A stretch of 21,870 bases of DNA from a virus, in the IMG/VR virus record IMGVR_UViG_3300020470_001312, positions 1-21,870 of that record; one strand, given 5' to 3'. Position 1 is the first letter of the stretch. Each line of letters starts with the position of its first letter. The notes below the pieces were generated by a model, which was not told the DNA's origin, made no database searches, and was given only the letters and a program-made list of their open reading frames with translations. Both the position numbers and the translations under genes were made by a program. Positions 1,083 through 21,870 of the stretch are shown one piece after another.

Positions 1083-1111
1083 TTGACTCTTACTTAGTAA
1101 GAGCCTATAAT
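1083..1111 (+). promoter_or_regulatory. Strong sigma-70-type promoter for the uvsY-uvsW operon
   Basis: TTGACT at 1083-1088 and TATAAT at 1106-1111 are separated by exactly 17 bases, close to the ideal bacterial sigma-70 promoter. It sits in the 58-bp gap between the tail tube gene and uvsY. The expected start of transcription (about 1117-1119) falls only a few bases before the uvsY ATG at 1121, so the mRNA would be nearly leaderless. It suggests transcription by unmodified host polymerase, i.e. early or middle expression of the recombination genes. Confidence 0.85.
1087..1103. repeat. Perfect palindrome inside the promoter spacer (possible operator)
   Basis: CTCTTAC (1087-1093) and GTAAGAG (1097-1103) are exact reverse complements around a TTA centre. 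The palindrome overlaps the end of the -35 box and fills most of the spacer. A related palindrome sits at the same place in the promoter at 19671. The location suits a repressor or activator binding site better than an RNA hairpin, because the element lies upstream of the predicted transcription start. Confidence 0.7.
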
Positions 1112-4003: not shown

Positions 4004-4603
4004 ATGGCAAAAAGACGTGATCCTAATTCAGCACATTACATAGATAACAAGGAGTTCCTTGCTAAGATTACTGATTATAGGAATAGTAGGATTGAAGCAG
4101 AAGAATGTGGAGACCCTAAACCACAAGTAACTAATTACTTAGGAGAGTGCTTTGTTAAAATAGCAAACCACTTAGCATACAAATCAAATTTCGTAAACTA
4201 TACATTCAGAGATGAGATGATTTTAGATGGTATTGAAAACTGTTTAACATATATAGACAATTTTAATCCAGAAAAATCTAATAATCCTTTTGCATACTTT
4301 ACACAAATCACATATTACGCTTTCATTAGACGTATCCAAAAAGAGAAACGTCAACAAGAAACCAAAATGAAATATATTAAAAGTTTGGACCTTGAAGAGA
4401 TGTTAGAACAAGGTGCAGATGGTGATACACATTCAAATGAATATTTGAATTACATGAAACAAATTATTGAACAGTCAGACGCAGATAAAGAGGCAGCAGA
4501 GAAACAAAATACTGGTAAGAAAATGCCTAAGCGTAGACCCAAATATTTAGATGAGAAAATTAAAAAAGAAGAAGAGGCTAAAAAAGGTAAACAAGACTCT
4601 TGA
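4004..4603 (+). CDS. 55: T4-like late sigma factor gp55
   Basis: gp55 binds host RNA polymerase core and directs it to late promoters of the TATAAATA type, with the sliding clamp as activator. The 199-residue product (T4 gp55 is 185) aligns with T4: [16 protein letters not shown] for the YVNNKELLQAIIDWKT region, [19 protein letters not shown] for the sigma region 2-like [40 protein letters not shown] for the DNA-melting/-10 recognition helix, and [11 protein letters not shown]. The C-terminus is very Lys/Glu-rich and lower in conservation. A clear RBS (AAGGAG at 3993-3998) precedes ATG 4004. The presence of late-type promoters elsewhere in the window supports the call. Confidence 0.93.
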   Translation: [199 protein letters not shown]

Positions 4604-4628
4604 TTATAGGTTAGCCCTTATATATAAT
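4600..4628 (+). promoter_or_regulatory. Sigma-70-type promoter for queE
   Basis: TTGATT (4600-4605) and TATAAT (4623-4628) are 17 bases apart, directly before the queE ATG at 4637; the -35 box overlaps the gp55 stop. The predicted transcription start is within about two bases of the ATG, so this too would give a nearly leaderless mRNA. An 11-base dyad, CAAGACTCTTG at 4592-4602, overlaps the -35 edge and contains the same CTCTTG half-site seen in the palindrome of the 19671 promoter. Confidence 0.72.
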
Positions 4629-5716: not shown

Positions 5717-6219
5717 AAACAGCAATTGATCCAAGAACAACAGAAGAAAAAATTTATGTTACATGGGACGACCATAAAGGTTTAGTCTATGAACTTTACG
5801 AACAAATAAAAATAGCAAGGTGGTATTACAATGAACACTTATCTGTTCATCATCAACGACCTGTTAAAAAAATTGTAGGTGTGAGTCGAGGAGGACTTGT
5901 ACCAGGTGTCATGTTAAGTCATATGTTTGATGCAGAATTTGAACCATTAGTTTGGCAAACAAGAGACGGTGGTGAAACAGATACAATAAAGGCTATTGAA
6001 TTAAATAATAGTGATGTATTAAAGGATACCATTTTTGTAGATGATATATGTGATAGTGGTACTACAATAAAACAAATAAGATCTTTAATACCAGACAGTC
6101 AATGGGCAGTACTTCATAACAAATTGGGTGACATGGATATTGACTTTGAAGGCAAAAGGCTTTATTATGATGGACAATCAGACCAAAGATGGGTAGTTTA
6201 CCCTTGGGAGAACAGTTAA
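5713..6219 (+). CDS. Purine phosphoribosyltransferase (XGPRT/Gpt-like)
   Basis: Type I phosphoribosyltransferases join a free purine base to PRPP to make the nucleotide. The PRPP-binding loop is at residues 107-118 (IFVDDICDSGTT), preceded by IVGVSRGGLVPG around residue 54, which forms the pyrophosphate-binding turn. The C-terminal RWVVYPWE matches the W-x-x-x-PW ending of E. coli xanthine-guanine phosphoribosyltransferase, so guanine or xanthine is the likely base. At 168 residues it is close to the 152 of Gpt. It lies between queE and folE; recycling guanine would feed GMP and GTP for FolE and could recover the guanine released by DpdA (inference). Substrate cannot be fixed from sequence alone. 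Confidence 0.83.
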   Translation: MKTAIDPRTTEEKIYVTWDDHKGLVYELYEQIKIARWYYNEHLSVHHQRPVKKIVGVSRGGLVPGVMLSHMFDAEFEPLVWQTRDGGETDTIKAIELNNSDVLKDTIFVDDICDSGTTIKQIRSLIPDSQWAVLHNKLGDMDIDFEGKRLYYDGQSDQRWVVYPWENS

Positions 6220-6294: not shown

Positions 6295-6969
6295 ATGGCT
6301 TTTAATAAGACAAAAACTGACCCTGAACTTGGGTTAGAAATTCACAAGCACTTAGTCAAGTGTGGAGTAGAAACACCCGTAACAGATAATTCACTTAATC
6401 GTACTGAGAAGATAGATATAATTGAATCTCGGTTTACAGATATTATGAACGCATTAGGACTTGATCTTAACGATGATAGTCTTATGGACACACCTAAGCG
6501 TGTGGCAAAGATGTATGTGAATGAAATCTTTTGGGGTTTAGACTATGAGGCATTTCCAAAATGCACAGCAGTTGAAAACAAAATGGAATATGAAAGCATG
6601 GTTATAGAAAGGAACATTAATGTTCAATCTAACTGTGAACACCACTTTGTTGTAATTGATGGTGTTGGAACTGTGGCATACATTCCTAATAAAAAAGTAT
6701 TAGGATTAAGTAAACTGAACAGAATAGTAGAATACTTTGCTAAAAGACCTCAGATACAAGAGCGTTTAACAGAACAAGTATATTATGCACTACAATACAT
6801 TCTCGATACAGACAATATTGCAGTAGTTATTGATGCTCAGCATTATTGCGTAAAGAGTAGAGGTGTAGAAGATGTAGGCTCGTCTACTATTACTAGCAAA
6901 CTAGGTGGTGGGTTTAAAGATGACCCAGCACTAAGGCATGAATTTATGAATATGATTGCTAGAAAATAA
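6295..6969 (+). CDS. folE: GTP cyclohydrolase I
   Basis: FolE converts GTP to 7,8-dihydroneopterin triphosphate, the first step towards folate and 7-deazaguanines. The 224-residue protein has all parts of the type I family: DTPKRVAKMYVNEIFWGLDY near residue 65, the zinc ligands C114 and H117 in SNCEHHFVVIDG, C185 in AQHYCVKSRGVED, the VLGLSKLNRIVEYFAKRPQI substrate-site helix, and the C-terminal SSTITSKLGGGF (usually ...TxxxxGxF). Length equals bacterial FolE (222 in E. coli). With queD and queE in the same block, its role here is most likely to supply precursor for DNA base modification. It has its own strong RBS and a late promoter upstream. Confidence 0.96.
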   Translation: MAFNKTKTDPELGLEIHKHLVKCGVETPVTDNSLNRTEKIDIIESRFTDIMNALGLDLNDDSLMDTPKRVAKMYVNEIFWGLDYEAFPKCTAVENKMEYESMVIERNINVQSNCEHHFVVIDGVGTVAYIPNKKVLGLSKLNRIVEYFAKRPQIQERLTEQVYYALQYILDTDNIAVVIDAQHYCVKSRGVEDVGSSTITSKLGGGFKDDPALRHEFMNMIARK

Positions 6970-16027: not shown

Positions 16028-16621
16028 ATGCGTAAAAGAATAATAATAGTAGGGGCAGTATTAGCAGCCATATTTATGGCAACACCTGTTAAAGCAGCAG
16101 ATACATCAGATGTAATTGCTGGTATTATCTTTGGCGGACTATTGGGATCAGAGATACAAAAGAATAGAGAGTATAGGGACGACTATCCTCACCCATATTA
16201 CAATGACAGATATAATAGTTATGGTGGGTATGAACAAAGACGTAGGCATGGTAATTACAGACATTATTATCAACCTAGTATCTTAATTCTACCTGACGGA
16301 ACTATTATAGAACCAAGAGTAAGTTTACCTAGAGTTAGGGAAGACTTCTGTTGGTATGTAAATCCAGATGCAACACTTCCTAGATGTAGGGATATTGATA
16401 TTGGATACATGAAAGACTCTGGGTTCAATTACATGGAGATTGATCGTATGTTAAACTTAGGTTCATACGCACAGTCATATGTAAATAGAACTTATGGTAA
16501 AAGGAGAAGTAGTGAACACCGAGACTTGGTGGAACGCTATTCTTATCCATGTGGACATGCAGGTTATGTTCCAATGGGTATTAGGGGCTGCACGGAAGTA
16601 GCAGAATATTATAACAAATAA
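16028..16621 (+). CDS. Secreted glycine-zipper protein of the cell envelope
   Basis: A 197-residue protein with a clear signal peptide: MRKR, the hydrophobic IIIVGAVLAAIFMA, and a VKA-A cleavage site near residue 23. Right after it comes a glycine-zipper-like hydrophobic segment (VIAGIIFGGLLGSEI), as in the 17-kDa surface antigen type of outer membrane proteins. A Tyr/Arg-rich stretch follows (about 45-85), then a folded C-terminal part with four cysteines (in FCWYV, PRCRD, YPCGHAG and RGCTE) that could form disulfides in the periplasm. There is no lipobox. It has a GGAGG RBS and stands 14 bases before the TonB-dependent receptor gene, so the two probably act together in the host envelope. 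The precise function is unknown. Confidence 0.78.
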   Translation: MRKRIIIVGAVLAAIFMATPVKAADTSDVIAGIIFGGLLGSEIQKNREYRDDYPHPYYNDRYNSYGGYEQRRRHGNYRHYYQPSILILPDGTIIEPRVSLPRVREDFCWYVNPDATLPRCRDIDIGYMKDSGFNYMEIDRMLNLGSYAQSYVNRTYGKRRSSEHRDLVERYSYPCGHAGYVPMGIRGCTEVAEYYNK

Positions 16622-16635
16622 TTTTTAAGTACATT

Positions 16636-18180
16636 ATGAAAAATTTGGTAGTATTAGTCGTGGCCTTTTTGGCCACGTCTGTCTATGCGCAACAAAGTGA
16701 TATAGAAGAAATAGTAATTGTTGGATCAACAATCAAAAACGGGTTTTCAGATCCTGAAACAGATAACCTAGCAATAGAAGCAATAGAACCCATTAAAATA
16801 TATGCACCTGGAGGTAGGGGTGGTTTTATTGGAGCAACATTAAATGGAACTGACGTAAAAAATACAGCAGTTTTTAGAAATGGAATTCCTGTAAACGATC
16901 CTGGCTCTGGTTGGTATGACTTTGGTGTAGACATTCCTTCATATCAATCTTACAAAGTAATATCAGGACCTAACTCTGTATTATTTGGAAGTTCAAGTAT
17001 GGCAGGAACAGTATTGATAGAAGATGAATATTGGCAAGACGTATTATATAGTAAAGGTGGTGAAGACCAAAGCTATGTGATGTTTGGTAATAAGCATTTA
17101 CTTGTATCAAGATACCATGGTACTAGCGGTTCTGTAATGACAGACAATAGTGAAGACGATTGGTTTAAAAATACAACATTAAGATCTAAAATGGAGTGGC
17201 AAGGATTTCAGTTTCTTTCTACAGTTACAGATTATGAATATGAGTATGATAATTGTTATGCTGTTGACTGGAGTAATACAGATGAATGTAAACAAAATGG
17301 CACAAAGTTAACATCATCAATACGAAATGATTGGTTAACACTAGGTTACAGTAGAAATGATACTGAACATCTTAGTGCAGGAGATAAAACTTGGCAAGCA
17401 GATAATAATAGATATTACATTGACGCTAAGGAAAGTATAGGTGACTTTTTATTGGGTGCAACATATCAGAAAGAAAAATATAATGATCTAGAAGATGAGA
17501 GACCAGCAGTATATGTGAATTGGCAAAATACACATTTTGGAGTTGGTTATCGTCGTGAAGAGTCAACAAACATATTTAGATTTGGATTAGATTTAAAAGG
17601 TGTTAAGTTTTCCTTAGGTAACAGTTTTAGATCTCCTAATTTATATGAACGATTTGGGGATGACTGGGTGGGTGCAAACCCTAGTTTAAAGCCTGAAGAA
17701 GGTAAAGGTGCTGAAATAAGTTATAGTAAATTTACTGCATGGAGATATGAATTTGATGAGGGTATTGATTTTGATTTTATGCAATATCAATATATAAACT
17801 CTGGAGAGTACACATCTACAGGTATTAAGTATGCTAATCATATAATAACTGAGAACGGAAGTTGGTATGTATTGGCACAATACACAGACACAGATAAACT
17901 TAGGGTTCCTAAATATCAAACAAAGATATCTTACTATAATGGTTGGGGTGACTTTGATTATATGATTGAATATGTAGGAGCATACGATAAAGGATTAGAG
18001 TTTGATGGCAGACCTATAGATGATATGTCAACATTTAATTTTAATTTAGGATATTATTTCGATAGGAAATATCGTTTAGGTTTACAGATCAAAGATATTA
18101 TGAACAGACACTTTGAAATTTTACCAGGGTATAGCGCAGGTGGTAGAGAGCTAACTCTTAGTCTCGACGTCAGTATATAA
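16636..18180 (+). CDS. BtuB-like TonB-dependent outer membrane receptor
   Basis: TonB-dependent receptors pull scarce ligands (cobalamin, siderophore iron, heme) through the outer membrane. The 514-residue protein has a signal peptide cut after VYA (residue 18), a TonB-box-like EEIVIVGS (24-31), a plug with VISGPNSVLFGSSSMAGTVL (108-127) matching the G-P-x-S-x-x-Y-G-S-x-x-x-G-G motif, and a beta barrel with SFRSPNLYERFG then NPSLKPEEGKGAEI. Its end, HFEILPGYSAGGRELTLSLD, is close to the last strands of E. coli BtuB (YGYQTAGREYTLSG). It is shorter than BtuB (614), and the plug lacks the usual D-V-L-x-x-x-P-G-V segment. No Shine-Dalgarno is seen. Cobalamin is the best guess for ligand, by resemblance only. 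Confidence 0.92.
   Translation: MKNLVVLVVAFLATSVYAQQSDIEEIVIVGSTIKNGFSDPETDNLAIEAIEPIKIYAPGGRGGFIGATLNGTDVKNTAVFRNGIPVNDPGSGWYDFGVDIPSYQSYKVISGPNSVLFGSSSMAGTVLIEDEYWQDVLYSKGGEDQSYVMFGNKHLLVSRYHGTSGSVMTDNSEDDWFKNTTLRSKMEWQGFQFLSTVTDYEYEYDNCYAVDWSNTDECKQNGTKLTSSIRNDWLTLGYSRNDTEHLSAGDKTWQADNNRYYIDAKESIGDFLLGATYQKEKYNDLEDERPAVYVNWQNTHFGVGYRREESTNIFRFGLDLKGVKFSLGNSFRSPNLYERFGDDWVGANPSLKPEEGKGAEISYSKFTAWRYEFDEGIDFDFMQYQYINSGEYTSTGIKYANHIITENGSWYVLAQYTDTDKLRVPKYQTKISYYNGWGDFDYMIEYVGAYDKGLEFDGRPIDDMSTFNFNLGYYFDRKYRLGLQIKDIMNRHFEILPGYSAGGRELTLSLDVSI
16659..16677 (+). promoter_or_regulatory. GC-rich hairpin inside the receptor's signal-peptide codons
   Basis: CGTGGCC (16659-16665) and GGCCACG (16671-16677) pair perfectly around TTTTT. 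AG (16656-16657) and CT (16679-16680) extend the stem past one mismatch. It starts 23 bases after the receptor ATG, in a gene that has no clear RBS and a G+C-poor context. It could modulate translation, or merely reflect hydrophobic codons. Confidence 0.4.
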
Positions 18181-19670: not shown

Positions 19671-19699
19671 TTGACTCTTGGTTCACAAGAGTGCATAAT
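19671..19699 (+). promoter_or_regulatory. Sigma-70-type promoter with palindromic spacer
   Basis: TTGACT (19671-19676) and CATAAT (19694-19699) are 17 bases apart in the 99-bp gap before the VWA gene. The spacer holds CTCTTG (19675-19680) and CAAGAG (19686-19691), an inverted repeat in the same register as the one in the promoter at 1083. The predicted start near 19706 leaves a leader of about 34 bases with AAGGA at 19723. The rest of the gap (19641-19670) is A+T-rich and shows no further feature. Confidence 0.78.
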
Positions 19700-19739: not shown

Positions 19740-21870
19740 ATGAACCAGATAGAAACAAAATCAATACTAGCAAAATGTTTGGCAACGGAAAACATCGAAG
19801 TCATTCATGATAAAAACATGCCTACAGCGGCATTTGATGTTAAGAACAGAAAATTACTTCTTCCAGTTTGGAAGGAGATGTCTACAGACTTATATGATCT
19901 GTTTATTGGCCATGAAGTTGGACACGCACATGAAACTCCTGAAGAAGGATGGCATGATTTCGTAATTGAAGACATGAACAAAAAAGCATTCCTTAATGTT
20001 GTTGAAGATGTTCGTATTGAAAAGAAAATTAAAGCAAGATATCCTGGTTTAGTTAAGTCCTTCTACAAAGGTTACAAAGAATTATTTGATAAAGACTTTT
20101 TTGGTATTGGTAACTTAGACGTTGACCAACTACCACTTATTGATAGAGTAAACCTACATTATAAAGTAGGCCATCTACTTGGTGTTACATTCGCAGAACA
20201 CGAAAAAGATTTAGTAGAAAGAATTGGCAAAGTTAAAACTTTTGAAGAGGTTATGAAACTTGCTGAAGAACTTTATGGCAATCATAAAAAAGAACAAGAG
20301 GAAAGACAAGAAGACCTCTCAGACTTTATTGAAAAAAACATGCCACACCCTTTTACACAAGAAGGACAGGAAGAGTTACAAGAAAGACAGCAACAAAGGG
20401 AAGCTGCTAAGGAACAAATCCAAGAAGAAAGAGATGCAGCTGAAGAAGCATACGAAAAAGAAGAGAATCGTAGACGTGATCTTCAAAACGAAGCATGGGA
20501 CAATGATCAAGAATTTGATGAAGACCAATTCAAAGATGAAGATGGTAGAGATGAACATGCAAGCAGATCATCATACGACGGATTGACTTGGGATGAAAGA
20601 CAAGATTTAGAAGATCGTGAGAGAAAACTTGAAGAAGAAGAAAAAGAAGATGCGAAAAGTGTTCTTGAAGCACAAAAAGAAAAAGATCTTCTTGATGAGA
20701 TTCAAGACTACTTAGATGAAGATGGACATTCAATTACAGACTCACAGTTTAGAAAAAATGAGAAAGGTTTAGTTGATGAAGATTCAAAAGATTTAAAACA
20801 TGTCAAACCTTTTAAAGGTGAAGTAGCTGATTATGTTGTTCCAATGGAAGAGGTATATGATTGGAACGAATGTGCTAGAGTTACTAGGACATATAGAGAA
20901 GAAGACAGTTATATGGGATCTTGGAAAGAAGAAGAGATTACAGATGTCAAAGGTTATGGTCAGAAACTTTGGAAAGAGTATGAACCAAAACAAAGATCTA
21001 TAATTAACTCAATGGCTCAACAGTTTGAACTTAGAAAAGCAGCAACATCATTTAAGAAATCTAGAATTTCTAAAACAGGTAAGTTGAATGAGGACAAGCT
21101 TTGGGCATACAAAATTACTGAAGATCTTTTCCACCAAACTCAAATCGTACCACAAGGTAAGAATCATGGTATCCTAATGTTCGTAGACATGTCAGGTAGC
21201 ATGAACAGACAGATGAAGGGTACATTAGAACAAATGGAAACGATGGCAATGTTTTGCAGAAGAGTTAACATTCCTTTTGATGTTTATGGATTTAGTGATT
21301 CAGGAAAAAGAACATCAAGTCATACCAAACAACAATTGGTAGACGAACTTACAGCAGAAGGTGGTAGAGGTAACTTTAGTTTTGCACACTTACTTAGCTC
21401 TAAGTGGAACAATGTTCAATGGAACGACGCAATGGCTTACCTACAAGTAATGAAAAAAGGTTATGAGCGTTCTAGGTATTACACAGATTTAACTGACGGA
21501 CATTATGTTTACCTTGATAACAGATTCTTTAGACTAGGTGGTACACCACTTGTAGCAGCACTTACATTGGCTCCTGAGTTAGCAAAAAGATTCCAAAAGA
21601 ATTACAATGTAGAAAAATTGACTACAATAATTCTAACAGATGGTGACCCAACTGATGATCTTACTTTTGTTGATGACCCAGATGCAGATCAGCACTGGGC
21701 TAGACATAGTGATAAGAAATTTGTAATCAAAGATGGAGCAACAACATTCTCAATTCCAACTAATGATAGTTATTATAATAATAGAAAAGAGAATGTGATA
21801 TTACTTTTAGAATACTATAAGAGAATCACACAATCTGTTCTAATTAACTTCCACTTATTAGATGACAATT
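19740..21870 (+). CDS. HExxH metallopeptidase-like / VWA-domain protein, CobT-like (3' end missing)
   Basis: The frame is open from ATG 19740 to the window end (710 codons). The N-terminal 190 residues contain LFIGHEVGHAHETP with HEVGH at 58-62, a zinc-peptidase signature, and a further VVEDVRIEKKIK motif where a third ligand might be. Residues about 190-330 are a Glu/Gln/Lys/Asp-rich, probably coiled or disordered linker. The C-terminal part is a von Willebrand A domain with a full metal-site (MIDAS) motif: DMSGSM (D483, S485, S487), GGTPL (T602) and LTDGDP (D634). This linker-plus-VWA layout resembles CobT, the cobaltochelatase subunit, and similar genes occur in marine T4-like phages beside a CobS-like MoxR ATPase. 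A peptidase or ATPase-partner role is as likely as cobalt insertion. Confidence 0.85.
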   Translation, partial: MNQIETKSILAKCLATENIEVIHDKNMPTAAFDVKNRKLLLPVWKEMSTDLYDLFIGHEVGHAHETPEEGWHDFVIEDMNKKAFLNVVEDVRIEKKIKARYPGLVKSFYKGYKELFDKDFFGIGNLDVDQLPLIDRVNLHYKVGHLLGVTFAEHEKDLVERIGKVKTFEEVMKLAEELYGNHKKEQEERQEDLSDFIEKNMPHPFTQEGQEELQERQQQREAAKEQIQEERDAAEEAYEKEENRRRDLQNEAWDNDQEFDEDQFKDEDGRDEHASRSSYDGLTWDERQDLEDRERKLEEEEKEDAKSVLEAQKEKDLLDEIQDYLDEDGHSITDSQFRKNEKGLVDEDSKDLKHVKPFKGEVADYVVPMEEVYDWNECARVTRTYREEDSYMGSWKEEEITDVKGYGQKLWKEYEPKQRSIINSMAQQFELRKAATSFKKSRISKTGKLNEDKLWAYKITEDLFHQTQIVPQGKNHGILMFVDMSGSMNRQMKGTLEQMETMAMFCRRVNIPFDVYGFSDSGKRTSSHTKQQLVDELTAEGGRGNFSFAHLLSSKWNNVQWNDAMAYLQVMKKGYERSRYYTDLTDGHYVYLDNRFFRLGGTPLVAALTLAPELAKRFQKNYNVEKLTTIILTDGDPTDDLTFVDDPDADQHWARHSDKKFVIKDGATTFSIPTNDSYYNNRKENVILLLEYYKRITQSVLINFHLLDDN

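Follow-up and report, generated by a model that had tools for sequence, protein, structure and literature searches.

Dyad-bearing promoters upstream of uvsY and a peptidase gene as probable members of a promoter family in uncultured marine T4-like phages

Two predicted promoters in a single viral contig, one upstream of the recombination mediator gene uvsY and the other upstream of a putative peptidase gene, carry the same inverted repeat in the same place, which raises the question of whether this repeat is an operator through which one protein controls both genes. The window, by which we mean the whole stretch of DNA that was analysed, is a 21.9-kb virus record with a gene order like that of the Kyanoviridae replication core (P-SSM4, Syn9, HTVC008M), and its proteins are less than 60% identical to those of every isolate. 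The close relatives were all uncultured contigs. No isolate was found to carry the promoter family described below (gp43 and uvsY fall below 60% identity to all isolates, and the 108-aa gene had no match), and scans of bacterial and archaeal genomes for a host found nothing. The features considered here are the following (sub-classes A and B are defined below).

1083-1111, + strand: predicted uvsY promoter of class B (TTGACT-17-TATAAT) with CTTACTTAGTAAGAGCC as its spacer; orthologous promoters occur upstream of uvsY in about 29 distinct variants
1087-1103: perfect 8-pair dyad CTCTTACT-T-AGTAAGAG within the uvsY promoter, without compensatory maintenance among relatives
1112-1564, + strand: uvsY recombination mediator (phrog_231, 1.5e-41)
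4592-4602: CAAGACTCTTG, the end of the gp55 coding sequence, outside the promoter family
4600-4628, + strand: predicted promoter of queE (TTGATT-N3-GGTTA-...-TATAAT), which belongs to the same broad family and lacks a dyad in the register
6140-6168, + strand: probable folE-type promoter, TTGACT-17-TATTAT, a weaker match, about 127 bp upstream of a GTP cyclohydrolase-like ORF at 6295
19671-19699, + strand: predicted class A promoter of the phrog_459 peptidase gene, TTGACT-N3-GGTTC-N3-AGAGTGCATAAT
19675-19691: 6-pair dyad CTCTTG-N5-CAAGAG within the peptidase promoter; left arm not conserved in class A
19740-21870, + strand: phrog_459 'peptidase' with an HEVGH motif, running off the window end (phrog_459, 2.8e-157)

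The original prediction had described this pair of promoters exactly. The 29-mers at 1083-1111 (TTGACTCTTACTTAGTAAGAGCCTATAAT) and 19671-19699 (TTGACTCTTGGTTCACAAGAGTGCATAAT) are identical at 21 of 29 bases and have a 17-bp spacer each, CTCTT...AAGAG stands in one register in both, with the dyad centre at base 13 of the 29-mer, and the sixth dyad pair is A-T in the former and G-C in the latter. The dyad at 19671-19699 consists of six pairs plus one outward A-T. The 20 bases 5′ of the two 29-mers match at just nine positions, and the pattern common to both sites, which was derived from those same sites, has an expectation of 0.02 per window when up to three mismatches are allowed. Comparison of the two sequences thus supports the view that the promoters are related to each other.

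The annotation of the genes concerned was refined in several respects. In the uvsY promoter, the -10 box is directly followed by a GTG at 1112, and the likely start is the ATG at 1121, nine bases past the end of that box. In some uvsY relatives an ATG lies at about +1 (35 from the start of the -35 box), and uvsY mRNA may be leaderless, or nearly so, in this uncultured clade. The gene from 19740 on had been called a VWA gene; we found no VWA domain in the part present and Pfam gave no match, and the N-terminus instead has an HEVGH zinc-protease motif. Homologues of this gene adjoin cobS in relatives. A dyad related to those of the two promoters had also been noted near queE. The CAAGACTCTTG repeat is indeed present at 4592-4602, but it consists of the last gp55 codons (stop codon at 4601-4603), just 5′ of the queE spacer and in another place than the promoter dyads, and since it is confined to the window and the two relatives closest to it, we rejected it as a related dyad. 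Elsewhere in the window, a phage gene at 16636-18180 has a TonB-dependent receptor plug domain (PF07715, 4.5e-06) and adjoins a short gene of no assigned function at 16028-16621 with a signal-like N-terminus.

Inverted repeats of this kind could also act in RNA, as terminators or as stems in transcripts that read through from the gene upstream. The site at 19671-19699 did fold better than shuffled sequences (z = -3.15), but that at 1083-1111 was ordinary (z = -1.10), and each set of repeats lies 5′ of the point where its own transcript is expected to begin. Neither stem is followed by a U-run or conserved in relatives, on which grounds we rejected such a function as highly improbable.

Extent of the promoter family and the genes served

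An exact scan of IMG/VR with the originally predicted pattern, which leans towards dyads and was kept out of the tree and register tests described below, returned 75 stretches, almost all of them 29-70 bases upstream of uvsY, the peptidase gene, gp43, a gene of 108-122 aa or a gene of 145 aa. For uvsY, 80 of 593 relatives were taken into the search. Looser matches in G001, a complete 170-kb relative, revealed further copies, and a profile trained without this genome found 19-20 sites in it, compared to 0-0.1 per genome in shuffled sequence at the same scores. Nearly all of the G001 sites have 17-bp spacers and lie on the coding strand, no more than 160 bp from the start of a gene, and they precede uvsY, queE, folE, the phrog_459 peptidase gene, cobS, and the genes for the gp45 clamp, the gp43 polymerase and the primase, as well as unassigned genes. 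About 20 sites in this genome therefore combine a TTGACA-like -35 box, a TATAAT-like -10 box, 17-bp spacing and upstream placement on the coding strand, the properties of sigma-70-type promoters. Also in G001, a second spacer-like copy, AATGGTCCTATAGAGTC, lies at 157895-157950 (L164, around 18600), directly upstream of the promoter at 157923; this is possibly a decayed or tandem promoter.

The expectation that scanning relatives would uncover further copies was thus borne out, and these copies stand upstream of a definable set of genes. The two window sites are, as judged from sequence, members of a promoter family of about 20 copies that precedes DNA-replication genes, and the comparisons demonstrate both the family and the positions of its members. 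The proposal that uvsY and the peptidase gene are controlled together holds in part: the promoters mark a possibly co-regulated set, and since about 20 of them stand before genes in G001, the claim is reasonable for some twenty genes rather than for two.

We consider it likely, with a probability of roughly 0.7, that the window sites belong to a lineage-specific set of sigma-70-type phage promoters, numbering about 20 in a 170-kb genome, from which early or middle operons of an uncultured marine T4-like myovirus clade are transcribed. These operons would comprise replication, recombination and nucleotide genes, with the early or middle timing inferred. The host RNA polymerase holoenzyme would read TTGACW and [TC]ATAAT, always 17 bp apart; we propose transcription by the host sigma-70 polymerase because no T4-like phage of this kind is known to carry a polymerase gene.

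Asymmetric elements and the fate of the dyad

The features that the family conserves are asymmetric, namely the -35 box, GGTYC or a similar element at -26 to -22, AGAG at -18 to -15, and two contexts of the -10 box. The family comprises two sub-classes: class A has an AGAG-TGCATAAT ending, for example at the peptidase gene, cobS and gp43, and class B has AAGAG-[CT]C-TATAAT (a YCTATAAT context), for example at uvsY, gp45 and the operon of a small winged-HTH (wHTH) protein. The site at 1083-1111 belongs to class B and that at 19671-19699 to class A, which weakens the idea of a single shared operator. Among the matches listed, in which the right side and the -10 box were fixed, there were 72 distinct 29-mers, with G10 in 53, G11 in 52, T12 in 61 and C14 in 54. 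The left arm in these matches, with the right side fixed, read ATTT, TCTT, TTTT, TTAT or ATTA, and C7, the dyad partner of the fixed G19, occurred in just 12 of the 72 distinct sites among the matches listed. Specificity would be conferred by two asymmetric spacer elements: one, in the middle of the spacer at about -26 to -22, reads GGTYC or alternatively GGTTA or ACTTA, and the other, AGAG at about -18 to -15, adjoins the -10 box where the extended -10 region is contacted. They would be read by the polymerase itself or by a non-palindromic phage factor in the role of T4 MotA.

The dyad fared differently from these elements across relatives. In G001, CTCTT/AAGAG was found at one of the 20 family sites. 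Most peptidase homologues, to as low as about 50-60% protein identity, had a promoter that kept TTGAC-17-TATAAT and its distance from the gene, and the dyad was absent; these relatives were gathered with an alignment query, a single-sequence query having given just four loci, and one set of these promoters was partly built from sites found via the right-arm pattern. In the uvsY promoters the CTCTT left arm stays, and the right arm turns into AAGGT, AACCA, AATCA or AATAC. The uvsY gene tree gave 0.6 compensatory events versus 0.45 expected, and 34 pair-breaking changes versus 32 expected, with counts made by parsimony against an approximate null. Class A promoters showed no association between the left and right sides (1.62 paired positions versus 1.59 in shuffled sets, P = 0.43), and another register than that of the dyad (26) suited them best. 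Among class B promoters the dyad register beat every other (0.43 overall and 0.55 in the A18G19 subset), and the left/right association was weak (P = 0.005, and 0.05 in the A18G19 subset, uncorrected for relatedness or for the few gene classes tried).

A palindromic operator with compensatory change as the feature shared by these promoters, which was the core of the original prediction, is thus not supported in class A, in the uvsY and peptidase promoters or in G001. Arms that vary without keeping symmetry, set beforehand as the refuting outcome, are what these same four comparisons revealed, and a regulon defined by a conserved and compensating dyad was not found among the class A, uvsY and peptidase promoters. 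Since the dyad is mostly not preserved in relatives, it is probably not a control switch. With the left arm drifting and a single copy among the 20 sites of G001, we rejected the dyad as the recognition element of the family for class A, peptidase and uvsY promoters; the tempting operator reading proved to be mostly wrong. The alignments demonstrate the conserved columns and the failure of class A and uvsY promoters to maintain the dyad, and indicate that the dyad is not the feature by which the family is recognised. It would arise by chance: the conserved AAGAG stands opposite a T-rich stretch downstream of the -35 box, and in some members that stretch happens to read CTCTT.

Joint control of uvsY and the peptidase gene by a dimeric repressor, from phage or host, that binds CTCTT...AAGAG between the -35 and -10 boxes is in our estimation quite unlikely. 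Such a repressor would account for the common register of the dyad at both window sites, for the preference of class B promoters for that register, and for the distinct palindromic cassettes CTTGGTTNACAAG, TATACTTAGTATG and TTTACTTAGTAAG at one locus, the wHTH operon. However, the dyad occurs in just one of the 20 members in the complete genome, compensation is lacking at the uvsY promoters, the dyad is missing from peptidase orthologues and from class A, and the queE copy is limited to the window and its two closest relatives. The two window dyads are placed like known repressor operators between the -35 and -10 boxes, but unlike in such operators the symmetry is lost across the family and through time.

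The winged-HTH operon and the class B promoters

A conserved small wHTH protein (PF14090) is encoded in an operon behind one of the family promoters (G001, L163, 134732-134905). The protein is likewise encoded in G002, G005, G006 and G008, and its gene follows a family promoter in all five records where it was found. At the promoters of this operon (n = 41, chosen irrespective of the motif), 4.5 compensatory events were counted versus 0.32 expected (P about 0.0005, from parsimony and an approximate null and uncorrected for the few gene classes tried). The changes on the tree were mostly replacements of the whole spacer, palindrome to palindrome (CTTGGTTNACAAG, TATACTTAGTATG, TTTACTTAGTAAG); between certain phages that are almost identical, the spacer had been swapped to class A, without a dyad (L379 versus L377). 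Rapid turnover of an operator and recombination between promoters would each be consistent with this pattern.

It is conceivable, though doubtful, that class B promoters (uvsY, gp45 and the wHTH operon) bear a true, loosely specified palindromic operator for a putative phage regulator, with cassettes being swapped at the regulator's own operon. If so, this would represent MotA-independent control of middle genes with fast operator turnover. A more specific form, somewhat less probable still, confines operators to class B; the regulator, perhaps the PF14090 protein, would recognise TTRS-N3-SYAA, an inner dyad, at its own operon as well as at uvsY and gp45. The excess of compensatory events at the wHTH-operon promoters, the position of the wHTH gene behind a family promoter in five of five records and the best class B register of 26 are all consistent with this form, but the changes are whole-cassette swaps, some of them to dyad-less class A, and no compensation was seen at uvsY. 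Moreover, the recognition region of the wHTH protein did not track the cassette type (L417 versus L423, L379 versus L377), so that its candidacy as the cognate binder was not supported.

Among the upstream regions L377-L451, near-identical phages have different whole spacers in front of the same gene (for example L379 versus L377 and L417 versus L413). This suggests an exchange of promoter cassettes among nearly identical phages.

Comparison with known phage promoters

In T4, middle promoters serve replication, recombination and nucleotide genes, including P43, P45, PuvsX and PuvsY (PMC2988021). The family described here precedes the same kinds of gene (uvsY, gp43, gp45, primase, folE, queE and cobS) and in both cases a good -10 box is preceded by an asymmetric element; the MotA protein of T4 binds as a monomer. 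However, the T4 middle promoter lacks a -35 box and instead has a MotA box, TGCTTtA, centred at -30 and 12 ± 1 bp upstream of the -10 box (PMC2988021), whereas the family keeps TTGAC at -35, has its extra elements in the spacer, and shows TGACTCTTGG or a similar sequence at the place of the MotA box; the family promoters are therefore not members of that class. MotA (PF09114) was matched in none of 10 records and in no control genome either, so this search was silent throughout. Unlike T4-type late promoters, which have a TATAAATA -10 box and no -35 box, the family has TATAAT or CATAAT at -10 together with a -35 box.

Cyanomyoviruses and the Pelagibacter phage HTVC008M are without motA, asiA, alt and modA (PMC2984593, PMC7029224). 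The timing of middle genes in cyanomyoviruses and pelagimyophages, which proceeds without MotA and AsiA, has been called unclear, and attempts to find the middle promoters of pelagimyophages were unsuccessful (PMC2984593, PMC7029224, PMC9004378). The promoter family bears on this unsolved problem of marine T4-like phages, and its fixed spacer elements before the replication genes of a common marine clade offer a concrete sequence to test.

In overall form the family resembles the early sigma-70-like promoters of S-PM2, Syn9, P-SSM4 and HTVC008M, which have TTGAC, 16-18 bp and TATAAT before homologous genes. The window pattern itself was rejected for HTVC008M, P-SSM4 and Syn9, whose promoters are of the same overall kind with other spacers. 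The HTVC008M spacer differs in reading TTGACTTTT...TGTGATATAAT, and the gp55 promoters of P-SSM4 and Syn9 differ in having a TTGACAA-GT-TTGTCAA repeat over the -35 box. This inverted repeat, at the promoters of the late sigma gene gp55, is conserved from P-SSM4 (L289, 23238) to Syn9 (L290, 22926). HTVC008M (L287, L288) has its own, apparently undescribed set of TTGACTTTT...TGTGATATAAT promoters before gp43, gp55, primase and other genes.
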